Assembly (NCBI GenBank): GCA_029907255.1
Contig: JARYMF010000003.1
Location: forward strand, 190,061-254,060
Length of the DNA: 64,000 nt
Reading direction: 5' to 3'
Source of the DNA: Armatimonadota bacterium
Lineage (GTDB): Bacteria; Armatimonadota; UBA5829; DTJY01
This document shows, one piece after another, positions 2,034-46,885 of the stretch. Under the pieces are notes generated by a model, which made no database searches, was not told the origin of the DNA, and was given only the letters and a program-made list of their open reading frames with translations. A program made the position numbers and the translations under genes. How positions within the stretch are numbered: the stretch's first letter is position 1; each line of letters starts with the position of its first letter.

Positions 2034-3200
2034 CTATGAATTTCCAGCAAGTCTCTTAACAAACCGCTCCATTCGTTCAAGAGCCTGCTGAATATTTGAA
2101 AGGCTTGTCGCGTAGGAACAACGAATATAACCTTCGCCACATGCTCCAAAGGTATTACCAGGAACAACTACAACTTTTTCCTCCCGAAGCAATCGTTCGG
2201 CGAACTCCTCCGAACTTAGGCCAGTGTTTTGAATCGAGGGGAAAACATAAAATGCACCCTTTGGTTCGAAACATTTCAGTCCTATCTTATTCAGGCCCTC
2301 AACTATTAGCCGCCGCCGTCGATCATATTGCTGTATCATATCATTTGTGTCCGTCTCTCCATTCTTTAGTGCTTCTATGGCGGCCATCTGAGCGGTAATT
2401 GGCGCACACATCATTATATACTGGTGAATCTTCATCATTGCTTCGATAATTTCCGGAGTACCAGCAGCGAATCCAATTCGCCAACCCGTCATTGCGTATG
2501 CTTTCGACCACCCATTCAGCAAAATTGTGCGCTCGTATGCTCCTTTTAAAGTTGGAATGCAAGTGTGCTCAACGCCGTAGACCAGCTTATCGTAGATTTC
2601 ATCGGATATAACCCAAAGATCATATTTATTTGCCAAATCGATTATTTCTTGAAGCGCTTCCCTAGACATCACAGCGCCTGTTGGGTTGTTTGGATAACTA
2701 ATAAATATTACCTTAGTCTTTTCCGTTATTGCTTCCTCAATCTGCTTAGGAGTTGGAGCAAACCCTGATTCCGCACTTGTTGGAATTGAAACTGGTTTGC
2801 CATTCGCAAAGATCACACAAGGTTTGTATGCTACAAAGCACGGCTCAGGGATAATAACTTCGTCGCCTTGGTTAAGAATTGCGCGAAGGGCTAAATCAAT
2901 CGCCTCGCTGACACCCACTGTAATGAGAATTTGATTTTGGGGATTATATGTCAATCCATAACATCTTTGGAGATTTAGCGCAACTAGTTCTCTGAGTTCA
3001 ATAAGGCCATAATTCGATGTGTACGTAGTGTAGCCTTTCTCCAAAGCATAAATGCACGCTTCCCTGATACGCCAAGGGGTTACGAAATCGGGCTCACCAA
3101 CACCTAACGAAATGACATCATCCATTTGTGAGACAATGTCGAAAAACTTTCGGATGCCCGAAGCAGGAACCGCAGCCATTTTTGCAGAGATATCTGGCAT
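2034..3200 (-). CDS. Class I/II pyridoxal-phosphate aminotransferase
   Basis: A 388-residue fold-type I aminotransferase. The PNNPTG motif is at about 170-175, SDEIYDKLVYG at 199-209, and the Schiff-base lysine is K233 in NGWSKAYAMTGWRIGF. The C-terminal arginine that binds the substrate carboxylate is probably in GYIRCSYA. Family members transfer amino groups between aspartate, alanine or aromatic amino acids and 2-oxoglutarate in the cytosol; the exact substrate cannot be read from sequence. It starts 20 bases after an Lrp/AsnC regulator with an AAAGGT ribosome site, so the two are probably one operon. Full length for the MalY/PatA/AspC type. Confidence 0.92.
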   Translation of the reverse strand: MPDISAKMAAVPASGIRKFFDIVSQMDDVISLGVGEPDFVTPWRIREACIYALEKGYTTYTSNYGLIELRELVALNLQRCYGLTYNPQNQILITVGVSEAIDLALRAILNQGDEVIIPEPCFVAYKPCVIFANGKPVSIPTSAESGFAPTPKQIEEAITEKTKVIFISYPNNPTGAVMSREALQEIIDLANKYDLWVISDEIYDKLVYGVEHTCIPTLKGAYERTILLNGWSKAYAMTGWRIGFAAGTPEIIEAMMKIHQYIMMCAPITAQMAAIEALKNGETDTNDMIQQYDRRRRLIVEGLNKIGLKCFEPKGAFYVFPSIQNTGLSSEEFAERLLREEKVVVVPGNTFGACGEGYIRCSYATSLSNIQQALERMERFVKRLAGNS

Positions 3201-3220
3201 ATTGTGAATTTACCTTTCAA

Positions 3221-3700
3221 TCAGGGAGTAACCGCTAAGCGATGATCTTCTTCAGGTGGTGCAAAGATATCACCATCTTCCTTGTATTTCTTCAAAAGAA
3301 AATGCGTGCTTGTTGATTGTACTCGGTCTATCGTGGCAAGCTTCTCGGCCACAAAGAAGGCAACTTCCTTCATGTGCTGGCCGCCAACCACAACGCGTAG
3401 GTCGTGAGTTCCCGAGACCAAATAAACCGAATGAACTTCAGGAAATCGATATATTCGCTCGGCAATATCGTCAAACCCTACTCCTCGCTCAGGCGAAACC
3501 TTCACATCAATGAAGGCATAAACTCGCTCCTCGCCAACTTTTTCCCAATCAATTACCGTCTTATACCGGCGAATTATGCCCTCCCTCTCGCACTTTTCAA
3601 TTATCTGCCGAACTTCCTCAACTGATTTGCCAGTCATCGTGGCAATTTCCTCGGGGCCGAGGCGGGCATCTTGCTCAAGGATTTTGAGTATTTCTTTCAT
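3221..3700 (-). CDS. Lrp/AsnC-family transcriptional regulator
   Basis: 159 residues. Residues 1-50 form the winged helix-turn-helix (ARLGPEEIATMTGKSVEEV, then a recognition helix and IIRRYKTVIDW), and residues 65-140 form the RAM/AsnC ligand-binding domain, including the VSGTHDLRVVVGG turn that usually lines the amino-acid pocket. A short C-terminal tail follows. The start has a good AAAGGA site. Lrp proteins oligomerise and sense amino acids. Its position 20 bases upstream of an aminotransferase suggests local control of that gene, probably with autoregulation. Confidence 0.92.
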   Translation of the reverse strand: MKEILKILEQDARLGPEEIATMTGKSVEEVRQIIEKCEREGIIRRYKTVIDWEKVGEERVYAFIDVKVSPERGVGFDDIAERIYRFPEVHSVYLVSGTHDLRVVVGGQHMKEVAFFVAEKLATIDRVQSTSTHFLLKKYKEDGDIFAPPEEDHRLAVTP

Positions 3701-11279: not shown

Positions 11280-12275
11280 ATGAACGACCAGCTTACCCTT
11301 GACCAATTGACTTTTAAACGGGGCGTACGAATATGTGGAGCTACTATTGGGCTGGCTTCGAATAACAAGTTTTTAATTACAGATCCTCAGTACTTCGAGG
11401 CAATGATTTTACAATCGCTTCTTACGGATGTTTGGCGAATTGAAAATGTCCCATATGCAAACGTGGATGCAGAATTTTGGGTCTATGACGTGGCCGAGCG
11501 TGCAATATCTTTTCAATTTGAAAACAATGGCAGGCGTCTGATATTGGTTGGGGACTTCACCAAAGCAGAAAAGTTATGCAGTGACAATCGTTACTCACTA
11601 TTTGGAAACATTGGTTTGTTTTTCAAGTATTTACTGGTCGTACTAGAAAAAAAGGGCATTTTTAGCTTCCATGCAAGCGCGATATTTAAAGATGGTCGCT
11701 TGGTTATGTTTGTTGGCCCAGCAGCAAGTGGAAAAACAGTGTTTATCCTTTCGGCAATAGAAAAGGGATGGAAAGTTCTTACTGTCGAAATGGCTCACTG
11801 TGAAATAAAGAACCAAAACTTAATCATACATAAGGGAGCCTTATACGACAACATTCGTGTGGGCAACCTCACGATTGACTTCCCTGGTGCAATAGAACCT
11901 TTGAAAATCAAGATACCAGATACAAAAGACATATGGGGTCATAAGTTCGCGGTTGACTTGACTCCTGTCGCAGTGGAACAAGACTACCTCGTAAACCCGA
12001 ACATATCCGTTGTTTTCCCAAAGGTCGAGACGGGAAGAGGAGACCCTGAGTTTACTCAAATTCCAAAGGGTAGGGGGCTTCGACGCCGGCTATTTGATAA
12101 TCTTACTGAGAAAATTGGCTCTACGTTGCTTTTATACGACGAATTGCCAATACCTGGCTTTGATTCACCCGAACTTGCGGCTGCTCGTCTTGCATTCATA
12201 GACGAATTCATGAATCGAATAACTGATGCCCGGTCTGTACTCACGGGACCAAAAAACTGCATGAAAGGAATCTAG
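11280..12275 (+). CDS. HPr-kinase-like P-loop protein
   Basis: About 331 residues from the ATG at 11280; an in-frame start 51 bases upstream is possible but has no ribosome site and lies in the promoter region. A P-loop GPAASGKT lies near residues 146-153 after the hydrophobic strand RLVMFV, and GKTVFILSAIEKGWKVLTVE follows. The layout, a variable N-terminal half plus a C-terminal P-loop kinase domain, is that of HPr kinase/phosphorylase-related proteins, which share a fold with PEP carboxykinase. No HPr or PTS gene is nearby. It is three bases upstream of comA, so translational coupling is likely. Its substrate is unknown; a regulatory or small-molecule kinase role in the sulfonate unit is speculation. 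Confidence 0.6.
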   Translation: MNDQLTLDQLTFKRGVRICGATIGLASNNKFLITDPQYFEAMILQSLLTDVWRIENVPYANVDAEFWVYDVAERAISFQFENNGRRLILVGDFTKAEKLCSDNRYSLFGNIGLFFKYLLVVLEKKGIFSFHASAIFKDGRLVMFVGPAASGKTVFILSAIEKGWKVLTVEMAHCEIKNQNLIIHKGALYDNIRVGNLTIDFPGAIEPLKIKIPDTKDIWGHKFAVDLTPVAVEQDYLVNPNISVVFPKVETGRGDPEFTQIPKGRGLRRRLFDNLTEKIGSTLLLYDELPIPGFDSPELAAARLAFIDEFMNRITDARSVLTGPKNCMKGI

Positions 12276-34099: not shown

Positions 34100-34734
34100 G
34101 CTTCAGAGCTTTCAATCAATACTGCTCGTGCCGGACTCCCATCGCCAGCCTCAATTTTTAGAGGCAGGCAAATCAATGTGTATTTACCCGCTGCGACGTT
34201 GCGTAAATCCAACCCCTCGATGATTACTATGCCAGCGCTTAGCAATGTCAAATGAGTAGGATGTCCCTTGCAACGAAACTTTTCGATGGAGAGATAATCG
34301 GTTCCGATAAGACGCGTCCCGCGTTCGACAAGCCACTGAGCAGCATCCGGAGCAAGGTATGTAAAATCTGTTCGGAATTCTTCCTCGTACCAGAAATCGG
34401 AATTTCTAGTTTTGAGCAATAGCCTGGTTGTGTTTTCTGGTATCTCTGAAGCCTGTAGCACCGACAAATCTACGACTGGCACATCCCCAACATCGCACAC
34501 ATAGCATTCCCCAATCAGCATATCTAGAGACACACTATCCAAAGTTGGAGCACCTTCAATCATGTGAATAGGTGGGTCAACATGAGTGCCCGTGTGCGTC
34601 CCAAGCTTAAGAGCCGATAAGTTCGAGCTAGCACCTTCAGATATTCGACCGATTGGCGTAATTTCAACACTAATGTCACCTGGATAAACCGGCATTCCAG
34701 GCCTAATTGGAAGGGTAATGTCAATAATCTTCAT
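34090..34734 (-). CDS. Cyclase-family metal-dependent hydrolase (kynurenine formamidase-like)
   Basis: About 214 residues from the ATG at 34734, which has GGAGG well placed; the frame is open further up but inside lnt. Begins MKIIDITLPIRPGMPVYPGD. Metal-binding HTGTHVDPPIHM and later RLIGTDYLSIE with the conserved His in GHPTHLTLLSAG are all present, the pattern of cyclase/kynurenine formamidase family proteins that open small rings or hydrolyse N-formyl groups. The ATG overlaps the lnt stop, so translational coupling is likely. Substrate unknown. Confidence 0.88.
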   Translation of the reverse strand: MKIIDITLPIRPGMPVYPGDISVEITPIGRISEGASSNLSALKLGTHTGTHVDPPIHMIEGAPTLDSVSLDMLIGECYVCDVGDVPVVDLSVLQASEIPENTTRLLLKTRNSDFWYEEEFRTDFTYLAPDAAQWLVERGTRLIGTDYLSIEKFRCKGHPTHLTLLSAGIVIIEGLDLRNVAAGKYTLICLPLKIEAGDGSPARAVLIESSEAWC

Positions 34735-36239
34735 ATTTCCTCCTTGCTCTTTAATTTTGAGTAACTTCGAAATAAAACAAACAATCCGAAGACGATTGTT
34801 ATTCCAAAACAAAAATAAACGAACCAATCCCCCATTCGAGTATAAAAGGTCTTTTTGTCTATTGGACTAACATCCGCTATGATTGTGCCCGGCTCAAATA
34901 TCCCTTTTTTGGCAAGGATTCTCCCGTGCGGGTCAATAATACAAGAGACTCCTGTCGACGCAGCACGAATTAGGTAGCGCCTATTCTCAATGGCACGGAA
35001 TACCGACTTTACAGCATGTTGTTCAGCAGCAGCAGTTCGCTTGAACCATGCATCATTTGTTATTACACACAAAACTTCTGCACCCGCAGAGGCAAGTTTT
35101 CGAGAGATTTCTGGGAAAATGGACTCGAAACAAATTGCAAGCCCCAATTTATGAGGTCCGCCTGTTAATATGTTGAAACCTGGCCCAGGCGAAAGGTCAA
35201 CAGGCGTCACCCGGTAGTATGAAAGAAAAGGCAGATACTTTCTTGCCGGAACAAACTCGCCAAACGGAACAAGATGTACTTTTGCATATTTTGCTATAAT
35301 TCCTCTTCCAGGAGCAATCAAGAATCCACAATTAAAACACTTGCCATCTTCATCTTCATTGTGAGCGCCAACAAGCAGATATGCATTGGAATCGGCTGCC
35401 AAAGTAGACAGAAACGCCTGAAGATAGTAATCAGTCCCCGGATTGCCGGGAACGGCAGTTTCAGGCCATACTATCAAACGCGCACCTTCACGGCTAACTT
35501 GCCTTGTGAGTTCACGATAGGTACGCAAAGTTCGCTCAATGTACAAGTAATCCTGAGGTACATCTTGGTCTATGTTTCCTTGAACCGCCGCAGCTCGAAA
35601 CTTTTTTGAGGAGGTTTCACCTGTTTGCAAAATAATAACTCCGTAAGCTAAAACTGCGGCTAACACCACTGCCACGATAACAGCCTGGGCTTTGAACAGC
35701 TTTCCATTTGCCACATTTGCCAACGTGGAGTTCACTAACGCAACAAGAAAAGAAACGCCCCAGACTCCTGTAATTGCGGCGATTTGTATAAATGGGAGGA
35801 AAGAGTGTTGACTATAGCCAATGTCGCCCCAAGTGAAGCCCATCATTCCTATTGACCGAAACCATTCGCAGCAGATCCAAAGCGCTGGTAGGAGAAATAA
35901 TCTTCCCCATGCGCCAAGAGGCCTTCCTAAAACGTTCGCTAAAATGACCCATAATAAGACGAAAAGCGACTGAAAAATAGCAAGTAATGCCCATGGTAAC
36001 TTTCCAAAAATTAAAATCCAATACAAATGGCTTGCAAAAAAACCAAAACCAAAAGCAAATCCGCATGCGAGTGATGCGCGTAATTTCGAATTGCAGACAA
36101 AATACATGAGAGGTGAAAGCGCCACCCACGCCAGCCAATGTTGATTTGCTCTGGGAAATGCAAGTGACAAAGCCACTCCCGACAGGAAGCATGCAAATAC
36201 CCGAAAGACCCCCATATACTTGTGCCTGTTGTAACCCAT
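34731..36239 (-). CDS. lnt: Apolipoprotein N-acyltransferase
   Basis: 502 residues. About six N-terminal membrane helices, a nitrilase-like periplasmic domain and one C-terminal helix. Catalytic triad: Glu in IVWPETAVPGN, Lys in YAKVHLVPFGEF, Cys in LAICFESIFPE. It adds the third acyl chain to lipoproteins in the inner membrane, which indicates a diderm envelope with Lol-type lipoprotein sorting. An ATG eight codons in (MGVFRVFACFL) is an alternative start. The 5' end overlaps the promoter of the divergent lipoprotein gene. Confidence 0.94.
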   Translation of the reverse strand: MGYNRHKYMGVFRVFACFLSGVALSLAFPRANQHWLAWVALSPLMYFVCNSKLRASLACGFAFGFGFFASHLYWILIFGKLPWALLAIFQSLFVLLWVILANVLGRPLGAWGRLFLLPALWICCEWFRSIGMMGFTWGDIGYSQHSFLPFIQIAAITGVWGVSFLVALVNSTLANVANGKLFKAQAVIVAVVLAAVLAYGVIILQTGETSSKKFRAAAVQGNIDQDVPQDYLYIERTLRTYRELTRQVSREGARLIVWPETAVPGNPGTDYYLQAFLSTLAADSNAYLLVGAHNEDEDGKCFNCGFLIAPGRGIIAKYAKVHLVPFGEFVPARKYLPFLSYYRVTPVDLSPGPGFNILTGGPHKLGLAICFESIFPEISRKLASAGAEVLCVITNDAWFKRTAAAEQHAVKSVFRAIENRRYLIRAASTGVSCIIDPHGRILAKKGIFEPGTIIADVSPIDKKTFYTRMGDWFVYFCFGITIVFGLFVLFRSYSKLKSKEEI

Positions 36240-36257
36240 ATCTGCTTCTGTTATAAT
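36229..36257 (+). promoter_or_regulatory. Strong promoter for the lipoprotein gene, probably leaderless
   Basis: TTGTAA at 36229-36234, 17-base spacer, TATAAT at 36252-36257. The predicted start of transcription, seven bases downstream, falls on the GTG at 36264 that begins the lipoprotein frame. Confidence 0.65.
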
Positions 36258-36263
36258 CCTCCT

Positions 36264-36935
36264 GTGAAAAGGCTCAGATTCATTTTTAAATATTTATTTG
36301 CATTTCAGGCTGTTATTTTGATATTGCTCATCGTCGGATGCGCACGAACTCCCTCGGGCATTTTGTTAACGCAAAAGCGCGAGCTGACCTTTCAAATCCA
36401 ATTCGACGCCCCAATAAACGAAGCATACTACTACTTTATTGCCATTGACACAAACACCGATAATGGCAAGTATCCAACGCCGATTTTTCCCTCGCTATTA
36501 ACAGGCGACAGATGGGTTACCGGCGGGGTAACACATTTTATCAGATACTACCAAGGCAAATACACCTTATACAAAGTAAATAATCTTGATACTTTCGACG
36601 TCGAACCAATTGGGGCACCGATACGTTTTGACAGAAGTGATCCGTCCAGCCTTGTGTTCACCATCGACCTAAATGACATCCAGGCAACCAGCCAATCAAT
36701 AGAAGTCAACTTCATAACCGCAAATCAACTAGGAACGCCAACCCGCTTTCTTGATGCCCTTGGTAAGTCCGGCACCGAATTCCTAGAAATAGGCATTACA
36801 AATGATCAAACGATTATAAATACTGGCGTTGAAACAATTGGCGATGTTCTAAATGAAAATCGTGAGATTCAGCCTTCGACTGACCTCATCAAACCTCTTG
36901 ACATTAAAGACTTCCGCATTCAGGTAGACGTCTGA
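36264..36935 (+). CDS. Lipoprotein of unknown function
   Basis: About 223 residues from a GTG at 36264. Signal MKRLRFIFKYLFAFQ (first residue coded by GTG), lipobox LLIVGCAR, mature part starting at Cys. No domain I recognise; the body is beta-rich with FQIQFDAPINEAYYYFIAIDTN and LVFTIDLNDIQ, suggesting an extracytoplasmic beta-sandwich. No ribosome site precedes the GTG, which agrees with a leaderless mRNA. An upstream in-frame start at 36222 would lie before the promoter. Divergent from lnt. Confidence 0.75.
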   Translation: MKRLRFIFKYLFAFQAVILILLIVGCARTPSGILLTQKRELTFQIQFDAPINEAYYYFIAIDTNTDNGKYPTPIFPSLLTGDRWVTGGVTHFIRYYQGKYTLYKVNNLDTFDVEPIGAPIRFDRSDPSSLVFTIDLNDIQATSQSIEVNFITANQLGTPTRFLDALGKSGTEFLEIGITNDQTIINTGVETIGDVLNENREIQPSTDLIKPLDIKDFRIQVDV

Positions 36936-37009
36936 AAGCCTTTTGTTATTGGATACGACGCACGAGCATCTACTTTGCAAGAATACCAAAATTGGTTTTC
37001 CTTAGCAGC

Positions 37010-45873: not shown

Positions 45874-46314
45874 TTACCTTGGCCATAATACTTGGTCCAG
45901 CCTTATCACTAGAACACCAAGCACAATAAGCACAGCGCCAATGATTTTCCCAGGTGTAATAGGTTCTTTGAGAAAGACGACAGCTACAGCGGCAGTTACA
46001 AGCGGATAAGTAGCCGCTATAGGCACAACCCATGCGGCTTCACCGGCTTTTAAAGCGTAATAATACACCAGCTGACCTATCAGTCCTGCCGCAAGTGCAC
46101 CAAGGATTATATACATTACAGAACGCCTATCAATTGTAACTAGTTCGCTCCAGCTACCTGACGCACCCAAGAACACCATTAATCCAACGGCTATTACAAT
46201 AGTCCTAATAGTTAAAGCAGCATGTGGAGTTGCTTTTTCCAAGCCCAGCTTATCAAGTACAGGCGTTATACCCCAAAGAATTGCGGTAAGCATTGCAAGC
46301 CAAAAAACTTTCAT
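45874..46314 (-). CDS. Half-size EamA/DMT-family transporter
   Basis: 146 residues with about five hydrophobic helices, one EamA repeat rather than the usual two: WLAMLTAILWGITPVLDKLGLE, LTIRTIVIAVGLMVF, YIILGALAAGLIGQLVYYYALK, VPIAATYPLVTAAVAVVFLKEP and IIGAVLIVLGVLVI. Half-size members work as dimers and move small metabolites. A large structured RNA lies upstream on the same strand (46437-46712), 123 bases before the start, so regulation by that RNA is possible. Confidence 0.85.
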   Translation of the reverse strand: MKVFWLAMLTAILWGITPVLDKLGLEKATPHAALTIRTIVIAVGLMVFLGASGSWSELVTIDRRSVMYIILGALAAGLIGQLVYYYALKAGEAAWVVPIAATYPLVTAAVAVVFLKEPITPGKIIGAVLIVLGVLVIRLDQVLWPR

Positions 46315-46436
46315 CTTATCTTCTCCCCCAAAAAGGAAACATAGAAAATTCTAGGCAGGTAAGAAGACGGTGTCAATGCAACTTTATGACTTGGGAGGTG
46401 TTAACATTCAATAATAAGCGCTTGCTTTTCACAGAT

Positions 46437-46712
46437 AAAAAATGCCAGGCCTTAGCACAGTCGCCGTTTAACTTACGCGACGCTCCTTGCCTCTTGATGC
46501 TATCGCGTAGGCAGGTGGCGGCGCTTTCGTATCACGACGTGCCCTTCGGTCTCCTTACCGCCCCGTATGGAGTTTCCTCCATACGGAGGTTAGGGTTCCC
46601 TACGGACAACCTTGCAGTCAGTTCCTGAGCCGTTTCCGGCCAGGTTCAAACTGCAAGGCTCGTGGTCTAGCCTGGCAAAACTCAAAGTACCGGGGGCACT
46701 TTCGGGTACACA
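46437..46712 (-). ncRNA. Large structured RNA of unrecognised class
   Basis: Transcribed leftward. The ends pair: GCCAGGC at 46676-46670 with GCCTGGC at 46450-46444, extended by TAG/CTA across a two-base bulge, and a run of six T follows (46442-46437). Inside are hairpins capped by GAAA tetraloops: CCGTATGGAG/CTCCATACGG (46586-46563), and CCTTGCAGT/ACTGCAAGG enclosing CCG-GAAA-CGG. A TACGCGA/TCGCGTA stem lies near 46473-46508, and GTGCCC at 46699-46694 can pair with GGGCAC at 46544-46539. It is not RNase P, SRP, tmRNA, 6S or a cobalamin switch: their conserved cores are absent. It could be a riboswitch for the EamA gene or an independent RNA. Confidence 0.6.
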
Positions 46713-46885
46713 AAATAAATACCCTACTGTAAAAAACTTAAACATCGGTCAAAAAAATTTTGCATGCATTTTTTATTAGGAAAATTTTAAGCAAGTAACA
46801 CGGTGTTTAAGGATAATGGTGGTTTGAGTAAAAGCGATAGTGGCATCCATTTGTCTACAGCGACTAATCCTGGAGGTTTGAAAAG

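Follow-up and report, generated by a model that had tools for sequence, protein, structure and literature searches.

This study examined the kind of RNA encoded on the leftward strand between positions 46437 and 46712 of a 64,000-nucleotide stretch of DNA from an Armatimonadota bacterium (hereafter, the window), and whether it is a leader of the gene that follows it or an RNA in its own right. The first-pass annotation had described a large structured RNA of unknown class that precedes a half-size EamA transporter gene, and had proposed a covariance-model search and a covariation test in relatives as checks.

Fold and architecture of the RNA

The RNA core (236 nt) adopts a closed three-arm fold with a predicted energy of -135 kcal/mol, compared with -99 +/- 4.7 in dinucleotide shuffles (z -7.65; 0/100 shuffles as good). 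This fold and the lack of an Rfam 15 match agree with the annotated large structured RNA of unknown class on the leftward strand. The following parts were identified.

46679..46712, minus strand: 5' leader, approximately 34 nt; GTGTACCCGAAAGTGCCCC is kept only in family f1
46443..46678, minus strand: RNA core, consisting of P1, junction helix P1b and arms P2, P3 and P4, supported by the fold z score, covariance-model matches and covariation
46669..46677 (5' strand) with 46443..46451 (3' strand), minus strand: closing stem P1, which joins both RNA ends
46661..46664, minus strand: 5' strand of P1b, CACG; its partner at 46456-46459 is followed by a near-invariant GCTAA
46608..46660, minus strand: arm P2, capped by a GAAA loop (46636-46633) and containing an internal GAAC/GAAC loop
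46541..46607, minus strand: arm P3, with a GAAA loop (46576-46573) and the conserved internal loops CCGTAGGGAACCC / GGTAAGGAGACCGAAGG
46462..46539, minus strand: arm P4, in which GATACGAAAGCG / CGTCGCGTAAGTTAAACG are conserved and the tip varies in length
46437..46442, minus strand: T-run directly 3' of P1; a long T-run is found only in f1, and other copies differ

The closing stem, the two GAAA-capped hairpins, a further stem (the third arm, 46539-46462) and the T-run had all been read correctly from the single sequence. The long-range GTGCCC/GGGCAC pairing that was also proposed fared differently: both sequences are present (46699-46694 and 46544-46539), but their pairing was not supported, the upstream half being found only in f1, where neither half varies, and GGGC already forming the 3' strand of the covarying helix 4.

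Among the copies of the RNA in other genomes, the 5' leader outside f1 varies in length and sequence and is almost absent in G018, and the terminators are not uniform. The arms are strongly divergent in G013, G026, G023 and G018, with P4 reduced to a short hairpin in G023; the junction segments CCACGAGC, GTTAGC and GACCGAGCTAAGG are mostly kept. The most conserved letters are those of the internal loops and the junction, and no conserved unpaired stretch of antisense length was seen in the aligned copies.

Covariation and coding strand

The proposed covariation test revealed compensating changes in the stems, as expected of a structured non-coding RNA. In the 13-copy alignment, which was fitted to the structure and is therefore biased towards it, 53 of the 75 pairs changed on both sides, compared with 23.4 in shuffles, and 95.7% of cells were paired in the true structure compared with 30-42% in slid structures, which had only 10-18 pairs with two-sided changes. 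With 11 copies, two-sided changes were found in 41/75 pairs (18.2 in shuffles), and a MAFFT alignment of eight copies gave 28/75, the structure having been derived from the same eight sequences. The weakest copy (G016, 34 bits) was left out of the pair counts; the promoter described below is present there. All nine pairs of P1 had 100% of their cells paired, and six changed on both sides. Covarying pairs numbered 16/21 in P2, 18/22 in P3 (helices 4-6), 11/19 in P4 (helices 7-10) and 2/4 in P1b, in which 80.8% of cells were paired. The pairs contained 119 G-U and only 7 A-C cells, which places the RNA on the minus strand. These computations show that selection on base pairing has conserved the fold, encoded on the leftward strand, in 14 copies.

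A protein-coding alternative was rejected. The plus-strand open frame 46293-46628 does not keep its length in relatives, and the pair counts favour an RNA on the minus strand. This frame, antisense to the RNA, is partly conserved as protein; because the underlying RNA is conserved, protein-level conservation is to be expected there, and the frame is likely spurious.

Relation to known RNA families

The covariance-model search returned no known class: none of the 4227 families of Rfam 15 matched the window at gathering score, a permissive scan of the window (E up to 10) produced sub-threshold chance matches only, and no match over the RNA was found at 11 related loci. RNase P RNA and tmRNA were located at other sites of this genome (C2 and C12), as was 6S RNA, and the present RNA was rejected as a stand-in for any of the three. 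Genuine 6S RNA was found in 21/21 high-quality genomes of the window's class; the RNA is therefore not a 6S substitute, and it showed neither an Rfam 6S score nor the open-promoter-like central bubble of that family.

Several RNAs nevertheless resemble it in part. Similar to 6S RNA (RF00013), it is single-copy and apparently stand-alone, and its own ends close the structure; however, 6S is one long hairpin with a central bubble, whereas a three-arm junction is formed here. RNase P RNA and tmRNA have paired ends and a similar size range, but both have their genes elsewhere and neither matches this locus. The large orphan bacterial RNAs OLE, GOLLD and ROOL are likewise elaborate, conserved and stand-alone, with unclear function, but the present RNA is smaller (~240 nt) and had no Rfam match. 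A search of the available literature found no paper on structured RNAs of Armatimonadota.

A predicted SigB-type promoter upstream of every copy

A conserved motif was identified upstream of the leader.

46719..46743, minus strand: predicted SigB-type promoter GTTTAA-N13-GGGTAT, based on the motif common to 14/14 copies and on the published consensus

The pattern GTTTnn-N13-15-(G/T)GGTA occurred upstream of 14/14 copies, compared with 0.14/14 expected from Markov-resampled upstream sequences (5000 trials; mean 0.14, maximum 3), a null that understates chance somewhat because the pattern was chosen after viewing these sequences. The motif was absent from the downstream flanks (0/14) and from the reverse complements (0/14). 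The spacer is 13 in the two copies of the window's genus, 14 in eleven copies and 15 in one. The independently published SigB consensus is GTTTAA-N12-14-GGGTAT, with a 14 bp spacer being optimal (PMC9847131, PMC8346170), and both boxes and the spacer match it closely; all 14 copies carry a candidate promoter of the GTTTAA-N12-15-GGGTAT type. The predicted transcription start in the window (~46712) coincides with the boundary that the first-pass annotation had drawn, and in G018 the promoter box ends 9 nt before P1, so that the 5' end of that RNA would lie at the stem. In the same class, 6S RNA genes use promoters of a different type.

When defined more strictly, the motif is rare: it occurred 14 times over the 2.48 Mb of strand scanned, one of these sites being that of the RNA. 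Other promoter-like sites of the SigB type were observed at window position 11319 (-), L296:8172 (+), L309:3736 (+) and L341:15211 (-), near ORFs that resemble, by eye, a transaldolase, a ferritin-like protein, a small membrane protein and a metalloprotease. These sites possibly belong to a SigB regulon of Armatimonadota.

The promoter comparison strongly supports the view that the RNA would form a transcription unit of its own, driven by a promoter of the SigB type (general stress sigma) that lies approximately 30-60 nt upstream of the core. Because all copies appear under a stress-type promoter, the RNA is probably a stand-alone stress RNA and not a switch of a neighbouring gene. We consider it quite probable that the copies represent a new family of structured RNA that stands alone and is transcribed under stress by a sigma factor of the SigB type.

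Possible modes of action

The proposed mechanism is that SigB, encoded with RsbV/RsbW-like genes, would read the promoter of the RNA, and in that case higher levels of the RNA would be expected under stress or in stationary phase. The RNA would then act in trans, its fold providing a scaffold to which a protein, the ribosome or polymerase binds. In our judgement a scaffold is to be preferred over an antisense RNA because the conserved parts are the junction and the non-canonical internal loops and not a long single-stranded antisense stretch. We tentatively suggest that the RNA could be a general-stress effector of Armatimonadota, driven by SigB and serving, through binding to polymerase, ribosome or a stress protein, as a folded part of a machine; it would be distinct from 6S RNA, which is also present.

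An antisense small RNA in which the folded part is a stabiliser only has a precedent in RsaA of Staphylococcus aureus, a Sigma B-dependent RNA that acts by base pairing (PMC3961350), and the leader and the arm tips vary between species, as this reading would allow. However, no conserved unpaired stretch of sufficient length was seen, and the best conserved letters lie in the internal loops and the junction; we therefore regard this alternative as unlikely. The SigB-dependent small RNAs of Bacillota, of which RsaA is one, share with the present RNA a stand-alone organization, RsaA being described as Sigma B-dependent and the promoter of the present RNA fitting the published SigB consensus, but the RNA described here differs in its closed three-arm fold, its conserved internal loops and its phylum, and no Rfam relation was found. 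The family and its architecture are new to the resources searched; its kind, an apparently SigB-controlled stand-alone RNA, has parallels in Bacillota such as RsaA.

A SigB-like sigma factor in the host genome

A search covering approximately 1.2 Mb of the 3.2 Mb genome by using tblastn, with a Bacillus subtilis SigB sequence used as a query only, identified a homologue in the window's own genome (G000) with 41.6% identity. Its score against TIGR02980 (SigB/F/G) was 289.5 bits (cut-off 234). The homologues of both G000 and G001 scored above this cut-off and below the stricter SigB equivalog cut-off (NCBIfam).

L318:14565-16961 (G000:C1 about 34565-36961): SigB-like gene set, with DUF948-like (weak), YtxH, STAS, HATPase_c_2 and SigB genes

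The order STAS (RsbV-like), HATPase_c_2 (RsbW-like) and SigB, behind the YtxH gene, corresponds to the RsbV-RsbW arrangement. The same gene set was found in G001 (L112:2581-4979), on a contig that holds one RNA copy; a SigB-type factor was thus present in both carriers examined. Autoregulation of the SigB operon through the same motif was rejected, since the motif was not seen in the operon stretches examined, a result that also weighs against the proposed SigB link. From the likeness of the promoter and the SigB genes seen in these two genomes, we infer that SigB of the host genome reads the promoter of the RNA.

The upstream motif might instead be read by another sigma factor or regulator, the RNA being stand-alone but outside the general stress response. 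The link to SigB is motif-based, and another sigma factor resembling SigB/F/G is encoded in the genome (L294:19209-19967, G000:C3; 173 bits to TIGR02980, below cut-off). Nevertheless, the close fit of both boxes and the spacer to the SigB consensus and the presence of a SigB-RsbV-RsbW-like set argue against this explanation, which appears decidedly improbable.

Distribution among Armatimonadota

Of 291 Armatimonadota genomes, 13 were found to carry the RNA, with 14 copies between them; 12 of these carriers are among the 28 genomes of the window's class, and the remaining one belongs to another class. Four families within the window's class yielded copies in DNA searches, and a covariance model built from eight copies extended these to 10/291 genomes of the phylum, including G237 of another class (231 bits); the final set was reached by searching the DNA with a divergent copy and by rebuilding the model twice. 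The covariance-model matches ranged from 34 to 283 bits, with G016 at the lower end, and pairwise identity between copies from 99% down to approximately 45%. Most of the phylum, and even the same-family genomes G002 and G004, have no copy, which indicates that the RNA is not essential. The motif GGTAAGGAGACCRAAGG matched 78 genome stretches, and the other RNA motifs were found only in those from Armatimonadetes/Armatimonadota; L027, which is among these matches and is cut by the locus end, was confirmed by the covariance model. No copies were found in phage, plasmid and E. coli records. In viral contigs, one motif had 0 matches and another at least 120; 80 were tested against the covariance model, and none fit it. 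In G013, many short GTCATCCTGAGC-like repeats were observed downstream of the RNA copy (L118 about 2600-3700).

The spread of the RNA bears on whether it is a mobile element (intron-like or a transposon-associated guide RNA) now left without its former protein partner. The patchy occurrence, the differing loci and the two copies in G001 would fit such an element, as would the G237 copy (L104, G237:C51:36411-36646), which lies in a 65% GC stretch of a genome of another class and is 79% identical to the window copy; the latter may reflect horizontal transfer or a misbinned contig. However, 12 of the 13 carriers have one copy per genome, four f5 genomes keep the RNA at the same comEC locus, the RNA has its own conserved stress-type promoter, and the phage and plasmid collections gave no match. 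No transposase, reverse transcriptase or TnpB/IscB-like gene was recognised among the listed ORFs beside the copies, selected neighbours having been scanned with Pfam; the features of omega RNA, HEARO or retron ncRNA were not found, and the Rfam scans gave no HEARO match. We consider a mobile element very improbable. The two copies of G001 (L100, L108) are nearly identical in P3 and P4, and P2 and the junction helix have changed on both sides in concert, which looks like partial gene conversion or specialisation.

Neighbouring genes and the EamA transporter

The gene annotated behind the RNA is a single-domain EamA gene on the same strand, as had been reported, and a second predicted promoter was identified between the two.

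46348..46376, minus strand: predicted sigma-70 promoter of the EamA gene, TTGACA-N17-TAGAAT (11/12 matches), downstream of the RNA
45874..46314, minus strand: gene of the half-size EamA transporter (146 aa; a single PF00892 domain, 80 bits), regarded as a neighbour and not as belonging to the RNA unit

The implied link between this gene and the RNA did not hold in relatives. Only members of the window's genus (G000 and G003) have the EamA gene beside the RNA; elsewhere, the next gene encodes elongation factor P (f4), a nucleotidyltransferase (f3) or the mechanosensitive channel MscS (G237). Four f5 copies lie upstream of comEC and point away from it, both G001 copies have no same-strand gene close behind, and the neighbours of some copies are convergent. 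The RNA was absent from the comEC locus of G024, G025 and G027, which belong to the genus of G023 and G026, suggesting that it is gained or lost as a unit. In G016, an RsbV-like STAS gene was observed approximately 1.1 kb from the RNA copy, beside a LexA-like gene (L257/L286:1510-1860).

A cis-regulatory leader, such as a riboswitch, would be expected to occupy the 5' UTR of the same gene or pathway throughout; EamA is on the same strand with 128 nt between core and ORF, and f3, f4 and G237 also have a same-strand gene further on, but the differing downstream families, the G001 and comEC-locus copies with no close gene behind or a convergent one, and the separate sigma-70 promoter leave this reading hardly any probability. 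The RNA is not a leader of the EamA gene. Between riboswitch read-through and an independent RNA, the relatives favour the latter, because the RNA appears to have its own conserved promoter, has no constant neighbour and is followed by a separate predicted EamA promoter.

Significance

These findings add a complex, covariation-supported RNA family from a phylum that has received little study. In contrast to most orphan RNAs, this one has a conserved promoter that names a likely regulator and a condition to examine. The results further suggest that Armatimonadota, too, use the SigB promoter code (GTTT...GGGTA).
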